51,410 bases of DNA. Source: a virus. Position 1 is the stretch's first letter. Each line of letters starts with the position of its first letter. Below the pieces are notes generated by a model. The model did no database searches. It was not told the origin of the DNA and saw only the letters and a program-made list of their open reading frames with translations. Location of the stretch: IMG/VR virus record IMGVR_UViG_3300035703_000130, positions 1 to 51,410 of that record; one strand, written 5' to 3'. The position numbers were made by a program, and so were the translations under genes. This document shows, one piece after another, positions 1,300 to 28,089 of this stretch.

Positions 1300-2307
1300 A
1301 TGGCTTTACTTACTGCTTCTCAGGTCCACATTGACCAACCGCTGACCAATCTCACGATTGCGTTCCTGCAAAACACTACCGGCTTTGTGGCTGATAAAGT
1401 GTTCCCTCGCGTTTCGGTTATGAAAAAGACTGACCGTTACTATGTCTGGCCGCGCGGTCAGTTTAACCAGATCGACGACATTAAAGAACGTGCGCCATAC
1501 ACTATGGCCCCGGAAGTCGGTCTGACGCTCTCGACTGACACCTATGCGGTTAAAGTTTACTCGGAAGCTGCTCCGATTGACTTTGAAACGGCTGCTAACG
1601 AAGATGCAATGCTGAATATCAAAGCGGCTCTCGCTGCTCAGAAAACCCAGCGTTTCCTTCTGCACCGTGAACAACTCTGGGCTGATCGCTATTTCGCTCA
1701 GGGCGTCTGGTCTACTGATTGGGAAGGTATTGCTGGTGTTCCCGGCGCTAACCAAGTCCGTCAGTGGTCGGATTATACCAACTCGAACCCGATTGTTGAT
1801 GTTACCAACATCAGCCGCACCATGCAACTCCGTTCGGGTGGATTTAAGCCCAACGTCATGGTTATCGGTAAAGAAGCTCGTGACATTCTTGTCAACCATC
1901 CGATTATCCTGAACCGTCTGAATGGTGGCGCTACTGTCACTAACACGGCTCTTATCACGGATGCTAAGCTTGCGGAAATCTTTGGCGTTGAGAAATTCCT
2001 CGTCATGGAAGCTGTCCGCAACACTGCCAAAGAAGGTCTGGCTGAAACCAACGCCTTCATCGGTGGTAAGGCTGTCGCTTTCTTCTATGTTCCGCCTGCC
2101 TCGGGTCTTATGGTCGCTTCGGCTGGTATGACCTTTACGTGGGATGAACTGGAAAATGCTTCGGGTTACGGTATCACGATCAAGTCGTATACTGGCGACT
2201 ACCTGACCGAGCGTGGCATTGCCGAAAAGATCGAAGTCAATATGGCTTACGACCAAAAGGTTGTGGCTGCTGACCTCGGCGCTTTCATCCGCACTGTTGT
2301 TGCCTAA
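1300..2307 (+). CDS. major capsid protein
   Basis: A 335-residue protein expected to build the icosahedral shell. The N-terminal 'NTTGFVADKVFPRVSV' and central 'MVIGKEARDILVNHP' blocks, and the 'TWDELENASGYGITIKSY' region near the C-terminus, fit phage major capsid proteins of the HK97-fold group. A good ribosome site (TAGGAG) precedes ATG 1300. Codon choice is unusually uniform, as expected for the most abundant product. It lies between decoration and connector genes. Confidence 0.85.
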   Translation: MALLTASQVHIDQPLTNLTIAFLQNTTGFVADKVFPRVSVMKKTDRYYVWPRGQFNQIDDIKERAPYTMAPEVGLTLSTDTYAVKVYSEAAPIDFETAANEDAMLNIKAALAAQKTQRFLLHREQLWADRYFAQGVWSTDWEGIAGVPGANQVRQWSDYTNSNPIVDVTNISRTMQLRSGGFKPNVMVIGKEARDILVNHPIILNRLNGGATVTNTALITDAKLAEIFGVEKFLVMEAVRNTAKEGLAETNAFIGGKAVAFFYVPPASGLMVASAGMTFTWDELENASGYGITIKSYTGDYLTERGIAEKIEVNMAYDQKVVAADLGAFIRTVVA

Positions 2308-2325
2308 TATTGGAGGGAGTTGAAA

Positions 2326-2736
2326 ATGTCCCGACTCATCTTTGACTCCCGCCGCCCTCTGTTCGTCGCTCAACCGTTTCAAGCTTATGGTAAGAATTGG
2401 ACGGTTGACGACCACTTTCCTTGGGAACTCATAGGTATTGACTTCCAAGATAGAAGTCTTCATATGTTATATGATAACAACTTTCTACAGCATCGTCCTG
2501 ATTTAGAGAGTTCAATGCTGGATATTGTTAAGAAGACTATTGGGGATGGCTTAGAGTCCTTGACTATTGAGGCTCTACACAATCTTAGAGACAGTATTAA
2601 CAAGCAAGTTAAAGCTAAAGTTTCTACTGCCAGAGACTACGAAAAAAAGAAGTGTGCTTTCTCAAGCATCAAAGACAAGCAAATCGGCAAGATTAGAAGC
2701 TGGCGCGCTGCTTACGGACACATGGAAAATTACTAA
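2326..2736 (+). CDS. uncharacterised protein in head module
   Basis: A 136-residue protein of unknown family. GGAGGG lies shortly before ATG 2326, which decides this start over the one at 2320. Residues 60-110 are helical and charged. Codon use is closer to the connector genes than to the capsid gene. Its place between capsid and connector suggests a head-assembly or completion role, but no motif supports one. Confidence 0.6.
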   Translation: MSRLIFDSRRPLFVAQPFQAYGKNWTVDDHFPWELIGIDFQDRSLHMLYDNNFLQHRPDLESSMLDIVKKTIGDGLESLTIEALHNLRDSINKQVKAKVSTARDYEKKKCAFSSIKDKQIGKIRSWRAAYGHMENY

Positions 2737-2751
2737 ATACCGGAGGGGTAA

Positions 2752-3213
2752 ATGGCCTATACTTATGATCCATTGGATTTGGTGACTACTACCCCTGCTG
2801 GTAGACTTAATGTCGTCAGGTTACTTATTGGTGACAACAACACTGACGATCCTCAGATGCAGAATGAAGAGATTAACTTTGCTCTGTCTGAGAATGGAGA
2901 TAACGTTTATTTCTCCGCATCTTTCTGCGCTAGGCTTCTCGCTAGTAAATACGCTAGGATGGTTAATACCCAACTTGACGGTGCGCTTGAAGCAGAATAT
3001 AGCGACAGGATTAAACAATACACTCTGTTGTCCATCCAACTCTCTGAGCTTGGTAAAAAGATGGGTGGCAAGAGCATGGGTGTTAGCGCAGGCGGTATTT
3101 CTAAAGCCGCTATGGATTTGGCTAACCAGAACACAGATCGTCCAAAACCTGCTTTTGAGGTTGGGCAGTTTGACGCTTATAGCCAAGTAGGTTATTTCCC
3201 GGAGTATGACTAA
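2752..3213 (+). CDS. head-tail connector (adaptor) protein
   Basis: A 153-residue, mostly helical protein placed where gp6/gp15-type adaptors sit, right after the capsid genes. The opening 'TTPAGRLNVVRLLIGD' and 'DPQMQNEEINFAL' blocks match the usual start of adaptor proteins that bind below the portal. GGAGGG precedes the start. Its stop overlaps the next start by one base (TAATG). Confidence 0.65.
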   Translation: MAYTYDPLDLVTTTPAGRLNVVRLLIGDNNTDDPQMQNEEINFALSENGDNVYFSASFCARLLASKYARMVNTQLDGALEAEYSDRIKQYTLLSIQLSELGKKMGGKSMGVSAGGISKAAMDLANQNTDRPKPAFEVGQFDAYSQVGYFPEYD

Positions 3214-3572
3214 TGTTTGATCCCGCCTCTCTTAGAGCTTTAATCTCAGAGCATGGGGTAACAGTCACTCTTAGGAAAAAGGCTGCTGGTGCCTATAACG
3301 TAACAACGGGTTCTGTAACCCAAACAATTACTGACTACCAAGTCAAAGCTTACTTCTTTAACAATGACCCTTCGGTCGGGGAGTTTGCTGTTCATCAAAC
3401 TGGTGAAAGGCGAATGGTAGTTTCTGATAAACTAACGAATGGGGCCATTACCCCAGAGATTGACTCAACAGATGAGATTGTATTCGGCAGCAAAACCACT
3501 ACAGTTACTCGTTCCTCGGTGATTGCATCTGCTGGATCGACAATGTGTCAACTCTTATACTTGAGGGATTGA
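3213..3572 (+). CDS. head closure / stopper-like protein
   Basis: A 119-residue beta-rich protein coupled to the preceding adaptor by a TAATG overlap. Its size, order and the pattern 'VTVTLRKKAAGAYNVTTGSVT' fit the small beta-barrel stoppers (SPP1 gp16-like) that close the portal channel and receive the tail. The assignment rests on gene order and secondary structure only. Confidence 0.55.
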   Translation: MFDPASLRALISEHGVTVTLRKKAAGAYNVTTGSVTQTITDYQVKAYFFNNDPSVGEFAVHQTGERRMVVSDKLTNGAITPEIDSTDEIVFGSKTTTVTRSSVIASAGSTMCQLLYLRD

Positions 3573-13844: not shown

Positions 13845-14203
13845 TATTTGTCTCCACCAAACTGTTTGTCGTCTAGAAGCTCTTGAAGATAAGCTCTAGT
13901 CTTTTCCACCCCTACTAGCATCTTGTATACTCGAACGCCATAGTAAATGATCTTCCTAGAGTCATACTCCACTGTGGTTCCATCTTTTTCTCCCCAACGG
14001 CAAAGACCCTTGAAGATATCTTTCAGGTGGATACCAAACTTACCCCACTTGTGTTCAGCAAGATGTTCCATCATATCATTGGTTGTTACCCAATCTTGGA
14101 ATGGAAAGTCGTAGTAGGGGGCGGGACCCCCTGTAGGTTTAGGTTTCTGGTGTAGTGGATTATCATCTGGATGCCAATAGCTTTCCGAATACTGTTTAAT
14201 CAT
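13844..14203 (-). CDS. uncharacterised phage protein (DUF3310-like layout)
   Basis: A 119-residue protein with 'PYYDFPFQDWVTTNDMMEHL' and 'DSRKIIYYGVRVYKMLVG', which in outline resembles small phage proteins annotated as nucleotide-kinase-like DUF3310, where an aromatic block is followed by a K-x2-Y-x2-R helix. The similarity is weak. Start overlaps the PhoH stop (ATGA). Confidence 0.55.
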   Translation of the reverse strand: MIKQYSESYWHPDDNPLHQKPKPTGGPAPYYDFPFQDWVTTNDMMEHLAEHKWGKFGIHLKDIFKGLCRWGEKDGTTVEYDSRKIIYYGVRVYKMLVGVEKTRAYLQELLDDKQFGGDK

Positions 14204-14871
14204 TTAGGCCAAGACCTTTCATACCTGTCAAAGTTAATAATCCAATCCTTGCACACTTTGGACCTGACGATATCATCAACTCCGAAGTCAATCATAGGAA
14301 CATCTAAGTCCCATTTATCGACAATAGAAGTCAATACAGATAGGCCAGAGGTGCCTCCCCTAAGATCACTCTGACGAATATCCCCGTTAATAACTACCTT
14401 ACAATTTTCCCCCACTCGGGTCAAGAACATTTTGATCTCATCGTAGGTAGTGTTTTGAGCTTCGTCTAGAATAATAAAGGCGTTCTCAAAGCTTCTCCCC
14501 CGCATGGTAGACAAGGGGGCGATTTCAATCTTGCCTTCCTTAATATAGGTAGTCACCTCGGTTTTGCCAAGGGCTGAGGTCAAAACATCTAGCACAGGTT
14601 GCGCCCAAGGGGTGATCTTCTCTAGCAGGGTGCCGGGGAAATACCCCAGATCACGACCAACAGAGACAGAGGGGCGGGTAAGAATGATCTTTCCCACTAA
14701 CCCCTGTTGGAACATTTGAGAAGCATAGGTAGCGGCAATATAGGTTTTGCCCGTGCCGCTATACCCTGTGACGATTACTTGCTCCCTATCATTCAAGGCA
14801 TCAATATACCTCGCTTGATTCTCATTGAGAGGGGAGAGATTAATGTTAGTCTTGTTCTTCCGTGGCGGCAT
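14200..14871 (-). CDS. phoH: PhoH-like ATPase
   Basis: A 223-residue P-loop ATPase. Walker A is 'VTGYSGTGKTYIAATY' near residue 35, followed by 'KIILTRPSVSVGRDLGYFPG', and Walker B is 'NAFIILDEAQNTT'. These are hallmark PhoH blocks. PhoH is common in marine phages; it is thought to act on RNA, and in hosts it is linked to phosphate stress. Its start overlaps the end of the upstream membrane protein gene by 26 bases. Confidence 0.9.
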   Translation of the reverse strand: MPPRKNKTNINLSPLNENQARYIDALNDREQVIVTGYSGTGKTYIAATYASQMFQQGLVGKIILTRPSVSVGRDLGYFPGTLLEKITPWAQPVLDVLTSALGKTEVTTYIKEGKIEIAPLSTMRGRSFENAFIILDEAQNTTYDEIKMFLTRVGENCKVVINGDIRQSDLRGGTSGLSVLTSIVDKWDLDVPMIDFGVDDIVRSKVCKDWIINFDRYERSWPK

Positions 14872-15049
14872 CTACTACTGCTTTCAAGGCGTGTGCGTTA
14901 TTATCTACTACTTCACCCATACGGGCAATCTCGTCCCAAAGTTCGTCTACTTCATCTTCTAATACTTCCACTCTGTATCTGTCAATCCAGAGAAAGGTTG
15001 CCACACCCGCAAGCATGGCAAAAATCAGTGCATCAGCAATTGTAATCAT
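14846..15049 (-). CDS. small single-pass membrane protein with acidic coiled coil
   Basis: A 67-residue protein: an N-terminal membrane segment ('ADALIFAMLAGVATFLWI') then a strongly acidic helix. It overlaps phoH by 26 bases. Unknown function; might anchor a partner to the membrane. Confidence 0.55.
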   Translation of the reverse strand: MITIADALIFAMLAGVATFLWIDRYRVEVLEDEVDELWDEIARMGEVVDNNAHALKAVVDAATEEQD

Positions 15050-15101
15050 TATCCACCAACATCTACGATTTCACACACTTTGTCAAATTAAGTCAACAAA
15101 C

Positions 15102-17018
15102 TTATACATCAACTATCTCACAATTACCAACACAAGCGAAGGTTTGACTAGAAACAGTGTTGTCTTTCTTTTCAAACTCCGACAGTTGCGACCAGTCGAT
15201 CTTCTCAGGCATAACCGCTAAAGCTTTTTCATAGGTTTCCTTGTCTACCTCTTGATAAGGTGCTTGTTGATAAGTGTGATCCGAATAAGGAAGGAACGAG
15301 ATACCAGACACTTCATCAAAGTGCTTGTATACCCATGCCCCGACTTCCATCCACTCACCCTCTCTAACGTTAACAGTAATAGAGGGTTTATGTTCACACC
15401 AATAGCGTTGATAAGTAAGCCACAACTCCAATTGTTCGATAGCAGTAAGGTTAGCCCGAGTGATTGCCCCATCAGGAGATTTCACAGGGAAACTAAACAC
15501 AGTAGTAGAAGCAGGCTTCATAACATCTGGTTCAGCCGGGATACCCTGAGCCGCCATAAACTTAGTCAGAGGGTCTTTATTATCCCCACGGACAGTCCGA
15601 ATATAATACTCACTATGACGCGGGTGGATACCAGAAGCACTATCAACCAACTGGCTAACAGTGCCAGAAGGCTTAACGCAAGTGATTGCAGCCGATACAG
15701 GAATACCAAGCTTATCTGCCCACTCTTTGTTTGTGTTGATAGCTTCTTGTTTTAGATTAGTTAATTGATTCTCTAAATAATCCCCGCCAACAAAACATAG
15801 ATTATAGTTATCCATAATACCAGTCAGGCTTACCCCGAGGAGTCTTTCTTCCTCAGTATTAGCGCGCCAGATATCTCGCAGATATGGAAAGTGTGTGTAT
15901 GTTGCTTGGACAGTGCCAAGTATAGTTGCAAGACGGACTTTCCTACGCAACGACTCGAAAGTATCGTCTGCCCTGACAACCACTTCCGTAAGGTTGCAGA
16001 ACTGATAGGGTCGGAGAATAATCTCAGAACACGGATTTGTTCCAAACTCAAAGTTGGGGTTGCGTCGTCCATTCTTTCCTGCTTGCTTCTGTGAAGCCAC
16101 ACGACTAAAGATACCACGTTCACCAGACTTACTCTCCATCAGGGACAACCATTCCCGCATGAAGCTTTCTTCATCTGGCTTCTCCGTATAAGAGACAGAG
16201 TTGTTAGCCAAAGCGCGATGAGCATTTTGTTCCCACCATTGGCCCGACTTAGCATAACGCATACGATTGTCAGAAAGGTTAGACAGAGAAATCATAGCAG
16301 AGCGACGAACACCGCCAACAACTACAACCTCACCAATCTTACACATAATGTCGTGACACTCAAGGCTATTAAGCTGACGACCTTTAGCAGCAGCAAAAGT
16401 GTTGATCACAAAAGTAAAGAGTTCAACCAGAGGCCCCGGCCCAGATGCACGACCGCCAAAGGTCTTAAGCTTTGCTCCTGCTTTACGAACACGACTAATA
16501 TCCCAATTAGGAATCCTGCCTTCGTAGAGAAAACCAATCAGTTTACGAAGTGCATCGGCCCAACCCTCTTTGCTATCCTCAACAACAATAGTATCATCCA
16601 CTTTGAATAGGGCAGCAGGGATAGAGGGAAGCTGAGAGATAAACTGACGCTCTACCGAGAAACCCACACCAGTTCCGCAAAGCAAAATAAACATCGCCTC
16701 ATCAAAGGAACGGGGATCATCTACCGGAAGATAAGAGCAGTTGTATGCACAGGTATTATCACGATTGAGAGCAGCCCCAGCCGTCATAAGAGCGCGCATG
16801 GAAGGCATGATATCCAGATTAAGGATTGCCTCACGGATATCGTTGTAAGTTTTGGGATCAAAGTGATCATCCTCATCACTCAACTCAGGTGCAACTACGT
16901 TAATCATATAGCGGTCAACAGTCTCTTCCCAAGTTTCCCTGCGTTTTTCTGTGTCAAGCCAGCGGGCATACCTTGATGTGTGAATGAAGGCCATATAGTC
17001 GGTCATAAGTTTACTCAT
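15102..17018 (-). CDS. nrdJ: adenosylcobalamin-dependent ribonucleoside-triphosphate reductase (class II)
   Basis: A 638-residue enzyme that makes deoxynucleotides from ribonucleotides. Seen motifs: 'MPSMRALMTAGAALNRDNTC' near residue 75 with the first active cysteine, 'VVVGGVRRSAMISL' near 230, the radical cysteine and Glu in 'NPCSEI' near 330, 'CVKPSGTVSQLVDS' near 440, and a C-terminal Cys pair ('CVGNC') for re-reduction. GGVRRSA and NPCSE mark the single-chain class II (RTPR) group, which needs vitamin B12 from the host. AGGAG precedes the start. Confidence 0.92.
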   Translation of the reverse strand: MSKLMTDYMAFIHTSRYARWLDTEKRRETWEETVDRYMINVVAPELSDEDDHFDPKTYNDIREAILNLDIMPSMRALMTAGAALNRDNTCAYNCSYLPVDDPRSFDEAMFILLCGTGVGFSVERQFISQLPSIPAALFKVDDTIVVEDSKEGWADALRKLIGFLYEGRIPNWDISRVRKAGAKLKTFGGRASGPGPLVELFTFVINTFAAAKGRQLNSLECHDIMCKIGEVVVVGGVRRSAMISLSNLSDNRMRYAKSGQWWEQNAHRALANNSVSYTEKPDEESFMREWLSLMESKSGERGIFSRVASQKQAGKNGRRNPNFEFGTNPCSEIILRPYQFCNLTEVVVRADDTFESLRRKVRLATILGTVQATYTHFPYLRDIWRANTEEERLLGVSLTGIMDNYNLCFVGGDYLENQLTNLKQEAINTNKEWADKLGIPVSAAITCVKPSGTVSQLVDSASGIHPRHSEYYIRTVRGDNKDPLTKFMAAQGIPAEPDVMKPASTTVFSFPVKSPDGAITRANLTAIEQLELWLTYQRYWCEHKPSITVNVREGEWMEVGAWVYKHFDEVSGISFLPYSDHTYQQAPYQEVDKETYEKALAVMPEKIDWSQLSEFEKKDNTVSSQTFACVGNCEIVDV

Positions 17019-22542: not shown

Positions 22543-23276
22543 TTTGGAGGCTCCCATAGCTCACCGGGGTATCGTCTAATCCAAAGCAACCTAGCGTTTT
22601 CTAGAACACGAGACTCTGCCTCTTGGTAGCTGTGGTCGTGTGGGTGCTTAGAACAAATTTCATAATCATAGGCACTAACACAAGCATTATAAAGAGCTTT
22701 CTCACTATCACAACCTTCCAAGAGCTTTTCCGCTTTGACAGGTCCAATACCATAGATACCAATAATGTTATCTACTCGGTCACCCATCAAGATTTGCTTA
22801 TAGAAGTTCTTGGTTGCTTCCCAATTATCTACTGTTTTCCACTCCCACCTAGAGGGGTTGAAGATAGTGGTAGGAAGTTGCTCAAAATCCTTGTCGATAC
22901 TGACAATGACAACTCTGTCGTAGCCATAGTAATTAGCGTGAATACCAATTGCATCGTCTGCTTCACAACCTTCTGTGACTAAAGCATCATACTTGAAAAT
23001 TAAGTGTTCTCGTAAGGCAGAGAAGTGAGGTGGCTTTTCGGTGTCTTTTCGGTTTCCTTTGTAAACAGCCGTTTTGGCAATATCATTACGAAAGTTACCT
23101 TTTCCAGTGAGGAAGAACTTTCTATAGTTTGTGGTTCCCCAAGGATCGACTTCTTCGATGATGTGTCCAATTAACTCATCCAGTTTAAGCTTTGCGGTTT
23201 GTTCATCAGAGTCTTTCTCTGCCCAAGCACAACGATAGACGAGAACATCACCATCAAACAGTAAGTATTTATTCAT
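22539..23276 (-). CDS. 5'-3' exonuclease / flap endonuclease (FEN-like)
   Basis: A 245-residue nuclease with all FEN-type blocks: 'LLFDGDVLVYR' at the start, 'VYKGNRKD', 'GCEADDAIG', 'VSIDKDFEQLP' and 'GDRVDNIIGIYGIGPVKA', the helix-hairpin-helix. It removes RNA primers or flaps, and resembles the T7 gp6 and polymerase I 5' nuclease domain that this phage's polymerase lacks. Overlaps thyX by eight bases. Confidence 0.9.
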   Translation of the reverse strand: MNKYLLFDGDVLVYRCAWAEKDSDEQTAKLKLDELIGHIIEEVDPWGTTNYRKFFLTGKGNFRNDIAKTAVYKGNRKDTEKPPHFSALREHLIFKYDALVTEGCEADDAIGIHANYYGYDRVVIVSIDKDFEQLPTTIFNPSRWEWKTVDNWEATKNFYKQILMGDRVDNIIGIYGIGPVKAEKLLEGCDSEKALYNACVSAYDYEICSKHPHDHSYQEAESRVLENARLLWIRRYPGELWEPPK

Positions 23277-23976
23277 GCTTCAAACTCTTAAATACTGTTG
23301 GAAAGGCAGGGGCTAGAGCTTTCTTAATTTCCCTCGCCAGCATAACATGCTCCCATTGAGTGACACCCGGATCATCCCGAACATCTAGGTAGTGCAGCCA
23401 GCTACGCAAGGTTCCATTGACATAGAGGCGCGACATAGTAAGCCCTTCTGGCAGGATTACCCTAGCACACTCTTTAGCTACACCGGATGCCCTCATCCAA
23501 GCATAGTCTTCTTTAGCAACCTTAACAGTCCCATCTACAATAAGACTAGCCTCATTAAAAACTGCTTCTGGCAGATCATCAATAGAGTTTTGTCGGTTCT
23601 TAGTATCCTGTCGTCTAAACTCACGATCAGTAAATTCAATCTCGTCAGAGTAACGTTGGCTAAACTCTTGAACTCCACCATAGTCATAGTTAAAACCGGG
23701 GGCTTCAAAAGGGTCCGGACAGTATAAACTAGAGTGTCGAGTGAATTGACGAGTAATATCTCTTGGCCCCTCAATTTCCACAATAGCATTAACCATTTGG
23801 AAAACTGACCAGTGTTTATTACGAACACAGTAGTCTAGAAGAGAACCTAATTCCTTATCTTGATGTTGCGGATTACTGACCCTAGCGCAATAAGCTACGA
23901 GTCCCTCAGCATTAGGAACCCGTAGCTCAATAAGCGGTTGTGTCAGTGCGATAAGTTTTGCACTGAGTTTAGTCAT
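23269..23976 (-). CDS. thyX: flavin-dependent thymidylate synthase
   Basis: A 235-residue enzyme making dTMP from dUMP with FADH2. 'DITRQFTRHSSLY' and, about 25 residues later, 'QEFSQRYSDE' give the ThyX signature in split form, with an inserted loop between the RH and EFSQRY parts. 'VARVSNPQ'-type text at the N-terminus ('AYCARVSNPQHQDK') and 'TMSRLYVNGTLRSWLHYLDV' are also typical. Part of the nucleotide-supply set with NrdJ and MazG. Confidence 0.88.
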   Translation of the reverse strand: MTKLSAKLIALTQPLIELRVPNAEGLVAYCARVSNPQHQDKELGSLLDYCVRNKHWSVFQMVNAIVEIEGPRDITRQFTRHSSLYCPDPFEAPGFNYDYGGVQEFSQRYSDEIEFTDREFRRQDTKNRQNSIDDLPEAVFNEASLIVDGTVKVAKEDYAWMRASGVAKECARVILPEGLTMSRLYVNGTLRSWLHYLDVRDDPGVTQWEHVMLAREIKKALAPAFPTVFKSLKHE

Positions 23977-25148: not shown

Positions 25149-25727
25149 TCAGATTTTCTTGAGGTAGTTAATCTCTTTGGTCGCATTTTTGGACTTGGTA
25201 TCCACGTCAACAACCATAGCGATTTGGTAGTTACTACCTGCGTAGCCTTCCATAACGAGAGCGTCACCTTTTACAAGGTCTTTTGCTTCGTTGAAGTAAT
25301 GGTAGATAGTTCCGTTAGTTGCGAACTTAACCCCAATCGTATACGGAATGACTTCCGACACAGAGGCTTTGTCCACAGCAATAACATCACCGGAACCCTT
25401 AATTTCCATTACCCACTGGCCTTGACTATTCACTGCCAGTTTGTAACCGTAGGACTTGATATCGCCACGGTTGATTTCGTAGAGCGTCTTTTCATTAGCC
25501 ATGTTGGTTTCTCCTTGTTTTGGCGGTTCAAAAGTAGAATAACCCTTTGACACTAGAACTACGTTGTTTCTAGAGATAGTTGTCTTTTCAACACTGTCAC
25601 AAATAACATGCTCTAGGTTTAGCATATGTGCGCCGCGAGTTGACGCCACACGCCATATTTTTTTTGTTTCTCCTAAATAATGAGCTTGTTTCTTTACAAA
25701 ATCACCAACCTCAATAAAACCCTTCAT
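25149..25727 (-). CDS. two-part protein with internal start at 25502
   Basis: One 192-residue frame, but AAGGAG eight bases before an in-frame ATG at 25502 strongly suggests a second product of 117 residues. The first 75 residues ('FIEVGDFVKKQAHYLG' onward) look like a small SH3-type beta domain; the rest is another beta domain with a basic C-terminus. Either two genes fused by loss of a stop or a single gene with two starts. Functions unknown. Confidence 0.6.
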   Translation of the reverse strand: MKGFIEVGDFVKKQAHYLGETKKIWRVASTRGAHMLNLEHVICDSVEKTTISRNNVVLVSKGYSTFEPPKQGETNMANEKTLYEINRGDIKSYGYKLAVNSQGQWVMEIKGSGDVIAVDKASVSEVIPYTIGVKFATNGTIYHYFNEAKDLVKGDALVMEGYAGSNYQIAMVVDVDTKSKNATKEINYLKKI

Positions 25728-26302
25728 CAGTGCACCATATCGTAAGATTTACCGAACTTAACATCAATACCAAGAGGCACGTTAAGCTTTAGATCGTCGT
25801 TAGTCATCTGCATAGCTTTCTCCAACAGGTCTTTTCTCTCCTGCTCTTTTCCCACGGGAACGATAGAACCCTTTTCGTCGTGGAATTGGAAGTTGATTTT
25901 GCAACCCAACCCGCGCACATAGTAAAGCCACTTATCAAAGCAATAGACACCTGTCCCTTGGTTCAGGGTTGAGAAGCGATCTTTTTCATTCCGTAGTTGA
26001 TACCAAAAACCAGATACAGGGTTCTTAAGCCACATGCTTTGGCCAGTGTGCTTTACCTCGCAATCGTTAGCTACTTTCTGCACAGCCCAATTCTTCTTCC
26101 AGAAGGCATCCAGAAGACTTTTGGCAAACTCTACCGTGCAATTAAGATCACGAGCGAGCTTTTTCTCCCTGATACCATAGGTTGAGCTATAGTTTGTAAC
26201 TTTTGATGGTTTTCTAATTTGATGTATTTTATCATACAACTCTTTTTGTTTGTCTTTCGGTAGGGCTTTCATCTGTGCTAGGGTAAGTGTGTTTCCTGAC
26301 AT
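25727..26302 (-). CDS. DNA polymerase family A, C-terminal piece (fingers and palm)
   Basis: A 191-residue protein that carries only the end of a family A polymerase: motif B 'KVTNYSSTYGIREKKLARDL' (the O helix) near 33 and motif C 'INFQFHDEKGS' with the catalytic Asp-Glu near 140. It must work with the upstream piece (26695..28089), which holds the exonuclease and motif A. ATG 26302 lies inside the HNH gene's end. The pieces together give about 655 residues, a normal size. Confidence 0.85.
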   Translation of the reverse strand: MSGNTLTLAQMKALPKDKQKELYDKIHQIRKPSKVTNYSSTYGIREKKLARDLNCTVEFAKSLLDAFWKKNWAVQKVANDCEVKHTGQSMWLKNPVSGFWYQLRNEKDRFSTLNQGTGVYCFDKWLYYVRGLGCKINFQFHDEKGSIVPVGKEQERKDLLEKAMQMTNDDLKLNVPLGIDVKFGKSYDMVH

Positions 26303-26684
26303 ACTCAGCGGCGCTTTCTAAATACTTAGGGTTGTCTTGGAAAAGTCCCAAGCCTCGGTTGCAGTTGTGACATAACAAAGCCCTAACCTCTCCCGTTTTG
26401 TGGTTATGATCAACGTTAAGTCCAGACACGTGATCTTCTCGCATTTTAAAACCAAAGTCTCTACAAATAGCACACTTAAAGTCCTGCTCTGCAAGCATAC
26501 GATGCACGTCTCTGACGCTTATACCATAAGACCTTTTATAGTGCTTATCACTGTGGGCCTGTTGTCTACACTCTTCACAACAATAGTGATGTGATGGAGC
26601 CATAGGTTCAAAACTATCTCCACACCATTTACAAAGCTTATCTCTAAAACTACCTTGAGGATACTTACTCCTATGGGCTGTCAT
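26232..26684 (-). CDS. endonuclease VII-type HNH homing endonuclease inserted in polymerase gene
   Basis: A 150-residue protein. 'CKWCGDSFEP', 'YCCEECRQQ' and the later 'CAICRDFG'...'CHNCNRGLG' give zinc-binding Cys pairs, and 'LNVDHNHKTGEVRALLCHNC' is the endonuclease VII core. The natural end ('AAEYVRKHT') is followed by 14 codons that run into the start of the polymerase C-terminal gene in another frame. No ribosome site is clear before ATG 26684. It fills nearly the whole insertion that divides the polymerase. Confidence 0.85.
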   Translation of the reverse strand: MTAHRSKYPQGSFRDKLCKWCGDSFEPMAPSHHYCCEECRQQAHSDKHYKRSYGISVRDVHRMLAEQDFKCAICRDFGFKMREDHVSGLNVDHNHKTGEVRALLCHNCNRGLGLFQDNPKYLESAAEYVRKHTYPSTDESPTERQTKRVV

Positions 26685-26694
26685 TGGTTTTAGT

Positions 26695-28089
26695 TTAAGA
26701 GGCGTCTTTACTTTTAAACCATTTATAAAACTCATACTCATCTTCTGTAATAAGGCCAGCAAACACGGCCAAGCTTAGGTGAGGGTCATACCCTTCCTGT
26801 TGCATTTCCTCAACGTATTCTGGATCATGCGGTTGGATATAATGCCTCTTGGTTGTATCTTCCAACGACACCATATCAGAGCCACAGATTGAATAGCCTT
26901 CTGGTGCAATAATACAGGAGCGAATTTCTTTGCCCCAAGGCTTATCAACTCCAGGAATATTAGCCAAAGGCTTCCGGTGTTGGAACCTGAGAGTGTTAGT
27001 CAAACCATCAATAGAAGCAGTAAGCTTTCCATCTTTGTGAGACTCAAGAAAACCCTTGAAGAAACCTACGCGGTGTTTGATGATGGAGAGTCCCGCCAGA
27101 ACTTGAACAGCGGGGTCTTTTTCAGCCAGTTCCAGAACTTCTTCACACAATTCTCCTTCATTAGGATGACCTTTAGGATACCTGATCTGAGGTATCTGCT
27201 TATTTTCCCCTGTTACCTTATTACGTTCAAACTTAAAAGTCTTGCACTCCCAACCAAGATCGGTGAGCCAAGCCTTAATCTGAACATCAGATTGTGGGTT
27301 AGGTTCGACATACTCTTTAACATAGGTAACATCAGACACCGTGTCTAGAGGCAGGTTGAGAGAGGCCAGCAGAGCTTGCCACTTGATCCCGTGTGCACTC
27401 AATCCACCGTCTTTGAGGAAAGGTTTTTTGGGATAACTTTTGGTTTCGTAAACCGCAACTTTAGGCATAGAAGCAGCGAGTTCAACAAATTTTTCATCAC
27501 GTTGCCTTTCAAGCTCAGTCAAATGTTTTTGTGCAGATACAAGATCAACCGTAATGGGGTTAGCCTCTTGTTCCCTCGCACAGTCCATCTTGAAAGCAAG
27601 ATAGGAAGTATACCTAAGCCATTCCTTCTGGTCTTTGTCATAGAGGATATTAAGCTTACGCTCAAGGTCCTTCCACAACAGCCAGTTGATCTTTACGTCT
27701 TCCGTGACACGGTGTGCGTATTCTTCGTAGCTAAGGTTATTCCAGTCTTCGACTTTTGGTTTTGGGACTCCGAAGGTTTCTCCGTAGCTTTCAAGTCCGT
27801 GCTTGTCTCGTTGGTAATTGATTGTCCACGATAACGGGAGCGTGTCCACAAAATCATGATAAAGCAAATCAAGACCAAGGATACGATTAAATACAGGTAG
27901 GTCAAATCGAATGGCATTGTGGCAAACCAACTTTCTATCTCGGGGGTGTCCAGACAGAACAGCCCTCATTTCAAAATAGTCACCTGTAGTGCGATAGTTT
28001 ACTCCATCTTCGGTCCACCCAAGCACATGAATCTTAGTGCATACATCTTGAAACCCGTCAGTTTCACTATCGACTACAATAAACTTCAT
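26695..28089 (-). CDS. DNA polymerase family A, N-terminal piece (3'-5' exonuclease and motif A)
   Basis: A 464-residue protein. The proofreading exonuclease has 'FIVVDSETDG' (Exo I), 'LVCHNAIRFDLPVF' (Exo II) and 'YAHRVTEDVKINWLLW' (Exo III). The polymerase part begins near 330 and includes motif A 'YSICGSDMVSLEDTTKRHY'. It stops after 'YKWFKSKDAS', before the O helix. AAGGG before ATG 28089 decides the start. The missing fingers and motif C are the next polymerase gene, beyond an HNH gene. Confidence 0.9.
   Translation of the reverse strand: MKFIVVDSETDGFQDVCTKIHVLGWTEDGVNYRTTGDYFEMRAVLSGHPRDRKLVCHNAIRFDLPVFNRILGLDLLYHDFVDTLPLSWTINYQRDKHGLESYGETFGVPKPKVEDWNNLSYEEYAHRVTEDVKINWLLWKDLERKLNILYDKDQKEWLRYTSYLAFKMDCAREQEANPITVDLVSAQKHLTELERQRDEKFVELAASMPKVAVYETKSYPKKPFLKDGGLSAHGIKWQALLASLNLPLDTVSDVTYVKEYVEPNPQSDVQIKAWLTDLGWECKTFKFERNKVTGENKQIPQIRYPKGHPNEGELCEEVLELAEKDPAVQVLAGLSIIKHRVGFFKGFLESHKDGKLTASIDGLTNTLRFQHRKPLANIPGVDKPWGKEIRSCIIAPEGYSICGSDMVSLEDTTKRHYIQPHDPEYVEEMQQEGYDPHLSLAVFAGLITEDEYEFYKWFKSKDAS

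Follow-up and report, generated by a model that had tools for sequence, protein, structure and literature searches.

The family A DNA polymerase of the window (the whole stretch of virus DNA that we analyzed, 51,410 nt, IMG/VR record IMGVR_UViG_3300035703_000130) is encoded on the minus strand by two frames, E1 and E2, with an Endo VII-type gene between them. Our preferred explanation, to which we give a probability of roughly 0.8, is that a free-standing Endo VII-type cassette splits the polymerase gene and that the two halves are subunits of the enzyme; in this explanation homing, the direction of transfer, assembly of the halves, and their activity are inferred. The features of the locus are collected in Table 1. 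E1 is a single open frame with the end ...EDEYEFYKWFKSKDAS and a stop at 26695, and E2 is a separate frame with the start MSGNTLTLAQMKALP at 26302; the gap between them (392 nt) is filled by the endonuclease frame, which overlaps E2 by about 70 nt and ends at 26232. The start of the endonuclease is uncertain: it may be the ATG at 26684 or an in-frame ATG further upstream, at 26741, that lies inside E1. A first-pass annotation, made from the sequence alone, had described a polymerase in pieces with an HNH gene between them, the exonuclease and motif A in one frame and motifs B and C in the other; this arrangement is confirmed (E1 ends WFKSKDAS, followed by its stop, and E2 opens MSGNTLTLAQ), and all of the motifs are found intact.

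Table 1. Features of the split polymerase locus (positions are those of the window).
Feature	Position	Strand	Remarks
E1 (polymerase part: 3'-5' exonuclease and motif A)	26695..28089	-	464 aa; stop TAA 26697-26695
E1 tail (left adapter), LITEDEYEFYKWFKSKDAS	26698..26754	-	in place of the short linker of unsplit relatives
Endo VII-type (DHHRN/HNH) homing endonuclease gene	26232..26684	-	150 aa from ATG 26684
E2 (polymerase part: O helix/motif B and motif C)	25727..26302	-	191 aa; ATG 26302
E2 head (right adapter), MSGNTLTLAQMKALPKDKQKELYDKIHQ	26219..26302	-	
Whole cassette	26219..26754	-	536 nt; the nearest unsplit relatives (L015, L016, L020) have a 57-nt linker between these anchor residues

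Elsewhere in the window, the polymerase's strand block includes PhoH, a B12-dependent ribonucleotide reductase, and ThyX (14200-17018 and 23269-23976, minus strand). A 385-aa open frame at 1306-2463 (minus strand) runs antisense to the gene for the major head protein (1300-2307, plus strand) and has no Pfam match; it is probably spurious.

Taken together, E1 and E2 satisfy the criteria for a family A polymerase, that is, the presence of motifs A, B, and C and of the 3'-5' exonuclease motifs: DSETD, CHNAIRFD, HRVTEDVKIN, and GSDMVSLE are all intact in E1, RKPSKVTNYSSTYG and QFHDE are intact in E2, and E2 matches Pfam DNA_pol_A (E=1.2e-11). On the PHROG_17 profile (phage DNA polymerase), E1 covers positions 670-1056 and E2 continues from position 1056; because one stops where the other begins, no polymerase sequence is missing. 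The split had been placed before the O helix, and structure prediction agrees: an intact relative, L016 (85% identical over E1), was modeled with AlphaFold (mean pLDDT 91.5), and in this model the split position falls in the loop between a helix at 449-456 and the O helix at 463-476. The nearest solved fold to this model is T7 DNA polymerase (E=3e-29), and in a profile alignment the linker directly precedes the equivalent of T7 R518. In intact relatives this linker is variable (54-111 nt, median 57).

The insert was correctly recognized at first reading as an Endo VII-type HNH protein (Pfam Endonuclease_7, PF02945, E=4.6e-21). It contains VDHNH, VRALLC, CHNCN, and CAIC; its catalytic residues (D92, H93, H95, R101, and N109) and its zinc cysteines are conserved, and it satisfies the criterion for a DHHRN endonuclease (catalytic D, H, H, R, and N with CxxC...CxxC zinc ligands; residue list from PMC6083498). 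DHHRN endonucleases are known, including intron-encoded members in polymerase genes (PMC6083498), and the nearest relatives of the insert in phage records are the nucleases of group I introns in polymerase genes (those of PaGz-1, Bas94, LUZ24, Jarilo, and Kpp-61); these introns are inserted within the O helix, downstream of the split site in the window. Close relatives of the nuclease are also found free-standing in L188, L192, L195, and L197 (at about 2900-3400), directly 3' of intact polymerase genes; with this location added, the nuclease family is associated with the polymerase gene in three ways. In the dN/dS analysis of the endonuclease, synonymous sites are mostly saturated.

The same split occurs in at least 14 other viral contigs, that is, in 15 lineages with the window included; the counts come from searches aimed at splits, so they are not frequencies. 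In nine lineages the split contains an Endo VII-type gene (the window, L013, L037, L107, L112, L115, L180, L209, and L214). In three others an unrelated HNH gene is found at the same split (HNH_3 in L136 and L138; a different HNH, assigned by eye, in L213). The remaining three lack an intact endonuclease: L108 and L114 have none, and L206 keeps only a C-terminal Endo VII-type remnant (the last ~35 codons). In these three, only 183-221 nt separate the anchor residues; across the splits, this distance ranges from 183 to 657 nt. Three of the contigs (L013, L107, and L114) were each found in two metagenomes, and L205, at a contig end and apparently chimeric, was excluded from the counts.

The ends of the insertion recur with the split. 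An aromatic E1 tail of the FYxW(Y/F) type (like EYEFYKWY) is present in all 15 splits and in only one of 92 unsplit linkers, and the same proportions (15/15 and 1/92) hold for an MKx(L/I) E2 head; the window and L180 also share the start of E2, MSxNTLT. One unsplit polymerase, L134, has a 111-nt linker that resembles a joined E1 tail and E2 head and could be an ancestral or a re-fused form. The Endo VII-type inserts of different lineages differ at about half of their residues, so recent donors are absent from the sample; the unsplit relatives L015, L016, and L020 are 82-88% identical to the window. A search of phage records for close DNA matches to the window found none, and no cultured phage with the window-type split was present among the best 25 matches. 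We lean, with some hesitation, toward a more general reading in which portable adapter ends would let polymerases of this family run as two subunits, the endonuclease families would be interchangeable, and the split would be permanent after the endonuclease is lost.

The replacement or loss of the endonuclease bears on the alternative that survives best, that is, that the Endo VII-like protein is kept because it benefits the phage, for example, as a Holliday junction resolvase, with the polymerase still split. T4 Endo VII is a resolvase with the same catalytic motif (PMC6083498), and the HNH protein of the window keeps all of the key residues; however, the proteins closest to it are encoded by introns in polymerase genes and, at the same split, the endonuclease has been swapped for an unrelated HNH or lost, so we regard this alternative as unlikely.

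Judged by substitution rates, both halves are under purifying selection. Comparison of E1 of the window with its unsplit relatives gives dN/dS values of 0.05-0.07, and the split-unsplit pairs with unsaturated dS give values of 0.05-0.11 for E1 and 0.05-0.13 for E2, the same range as the unsplit pairs; the exception is E2 of L115/L158 (0.17), for which the matching unsplit pair gives 0.20. A Shine-Dalgarno-like sequence precedes the E2 start in most splits, and in L013, L037, and L112 the E2 start overlaps the stop of the HNH gene; in the window, only a weak sequence of this type is found upstream of the E2 start at 26302. The strongest evidence from sequence that the halves may work as such is that the split is kept without an intact endonuclease in three lineages. 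With the intact motifs, the purifying selection, and the separate E2 starts, these endonuclease-less splits support the earlier suggestion of two separately translated subunits. We conclude that the polymerase very probably works in two pieces; this is a conclusion from sequence without protein data, and both assembly and activity are inferred.

The same observations make it very improbable that the polymerase gene is simply broken, whether by degeneration, a sequencing frameshift, or an assembly error. The weak ribosome-binding site at E2 of the window and an HNH frame that lacks the stop position used in other splits are compatible with a broken gene; however, 14 other contigs have the same architecture (three of them in two metagenomes each), dN/dS is as low as in the unsplit pairs, the catalytic residues are all intact, and no second polymerase came up in the window ORFs that were scanned.

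We give even less credence to the idea that the polymerase message is spliced by a group I intron whose core is compact or unusual and overlaps the HNH frame, although group I introns in polymerase genes encode the nearest nuclease relatives of the insert. A search of the window with the Rfam group I models gave no match; because these models also miss the evident introns of the nuclease's relatives (LUZ24, Jarilo, PaGz-1, Bas94, and Kpp-61), this silence is uninformative. An intron sequence profile made from the introns of five relatives recovered six further, held-out introns, and all eleven were used to build a covariance model of the 3' intron core. This model scores 98-133 bits on its eleven introns; they are its training set, so the informative results are the held-out finds of the profile and the negative result on the splits. 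In the window, the best score with filters off is 1.8 bits (with filters, nothing is reported), and no match is found at the other split loci. There is no group I intron at the split in the window. Of the Rfam/Infernal search that had been proposed as a check, the Rfam part was uninformative, whereas our own covariance model detects the introns of the relatives and finds none in the window; the absence of an intron, first argued from the small size of the insert, now rests on this relatives-trained model and not on size alone. In addition, the known introns interrupt the O helix, which is downstream of the split site, and L108, L114, and L206 have merely 183-221 nt between their anchors. A group I intron of the same class is present in L014 (527-1255, 112 bits), upstream of and outside an intact polymerase gene. 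No intein family was found by Pfam in the window; outside the conserved core there are just 19 residues on E1 and 28 on E2, which is not enough for intein halves, so the criterion for an intein or split intein is unmet. The criterion for a split gene is met, that is, one enzyme is encoded by two ORFs with an endonuclease ORF between them and no splicing element.

Programmed frameshifting or ribosomal bypassing that joins E1 and E2 into one polypeptide is just as hard to defend: bypassing of a 50-nt gap is known in phages from T4 gene 60, but here about 390 nt, filled with coding sequence, would have to be crossed; in several splits a Shine-Dalgarno-like site stands immediately ahead of E2; and the anchor distance varies from 183 to 657 nt.

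Returning to the free-standing cassette, its mobility is suggested by the distribution of the splits. On a tree of 107 polymerases (linker removed, quick method, SH-aLRT support), the splits are scattered, with 14 changes between split and unsplit, at least 13 of them forced by starred branches (unsplit label), and every Endo VII-type split sits on its own branch; a long-branch warning applies to L209 and L177. In an earlier tree of 103 polymerases there were 10 changes, all of them forced. A single ancient insertion followed by vertical inheritance was considered and rejected, since the splits are dispersed over the tree, most of them with close unsplit relatives; repeated loss from a split ancestor is not formally excluded, and the direction of change is inferred from parsimony.

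Two pairs of split and unsplit polymerases are close enough to compare at the DNA level. L180 (split) and L173 (unsplit) are 97% identical in protein sequence; their DNAs have long runs of 100% identity on both sides and a divergent short tract around the insert that includes roughly 45 nt from E1 and 40 nt from E2. We infer that this pattern is as expected from homing with short co-conversion; recombination in the other direction or loss is not excluded. A similar pattern near the insert is seen for L115 (split) and the unsplit L158, in which E1 is nearly identical (dS 0.17) and E2 is far more diverged (dS 0.80); this contrast suggests that recombination took place at the split site or close to it. 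For the window and L015, L016, and L020, the same linker is replaced, and the divergence is too great for dating.

We propose that a free-standing homing endonuclease gene interrupts the polymerase gene at the loop preceding the O helix, without an intron or intein. The transferred unit would be about 540 nt and would consist of the C-terminal tail of E1 with its stop, the endonuclease gene, and the start and N-terminal head of E2; this cassette would take the place of the natural 57-60 nt linker. The endonuclease would cut unsplit polymerase alleles of co-infecting phages (its activity and target site are inferred), and repair would copy the cassette with short flanks into the cut allele. A single operon-like message with overlapping genes would yield E1 and E2 as separate translation products, which would assemble non-covalently into a working family A polymerase; if the endonuclease decayed later, the polymerase would remain split.

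Precedents exist for several parts of this proposal. The first-pass annotation had drawn a parallel with NrdA of Aeromonas phage Aeh1, which is split by the free-standing HNH endonuclease MobE without an intron and is active as a split enzyme (PMC2988022), and the parallel is apt: in both, the gene for an essential enzyme is cut into two encoded parts. The enzyme in Aeh1 is a ribonucleotide reductase and the endonuclease is of the MobE type, whereas in the window they are a polymerase and an Endo VII-type protein; also, unlike in Aeh1, the window-type split recurs across numerous lineages that have adapter ends in common and carry different endonucleases. A replicative phage polymerase encoded by two genes is known from gp43 of T4-like Aeromonas phages: in phage 25 an endonuclease lies between the two genes, and the parts co-purify and polymerize; in 44RR only an untranslated spacer lies between them (PMC2988022). 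That polymerase belongs to family B and the endonuclease is of the seg type (GIY-YIG), whereas the window-type splits affect a family A enzyme at the loop that leads into the O helix, and the endonuclease genes are of the Endo VII type or other HNH types. The intron nucleases of LUZ24, Jarilo, and PaGz-1 are the closest relatives of the insert and occupy about the same region of the same gene, but they are located in a group I intron in the O helix; the window has no intron, and its site is upstream. F-CphI (DHHRN, collaborative homing; PMC6083498) is likewise free-standing, with Endo VII-type catalytic residues, but it adjoins the intron-containing psbA gene (PMC6083498), whereas the endonuclease of the window is inside the gene and splits it. 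Finally, the OM43 phages MEP401 and MEP402 have a family A polymerase in two ORFs with a small ORF between them, the reason for which was left open (PMC10580990). The MEP401 polymerase (L202:6111-8221) is split upstream of motif A, and the intervening 77-aa ORF is of unknown kind; because the site is different, MEP401 is ruled out as a case of the window-type split and represents a second place at which family A phage polymerases have been split independently. We found no report of the window-type split in the literature searched (many subscription papers were outside its scope).

That single phage genes can be split by homing endonucleases is already known; here one polymerase family shows the same split in at least 15 lineages, next to the O helix, a moving element of a replicative polymerase. 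With the near-identical pairs of split and unsplit polymerases (L180/L173 and L115/L158), direct tests of homing, co-conversion, and subunit assembly are possible. If the halves assemble, the split would show that, in addition to using introns and inteins, a selfish nuclease has a third means of residing inside an essential gene, and it would provide a route from single-chain enzymes to permanent two-subunit enzymes.
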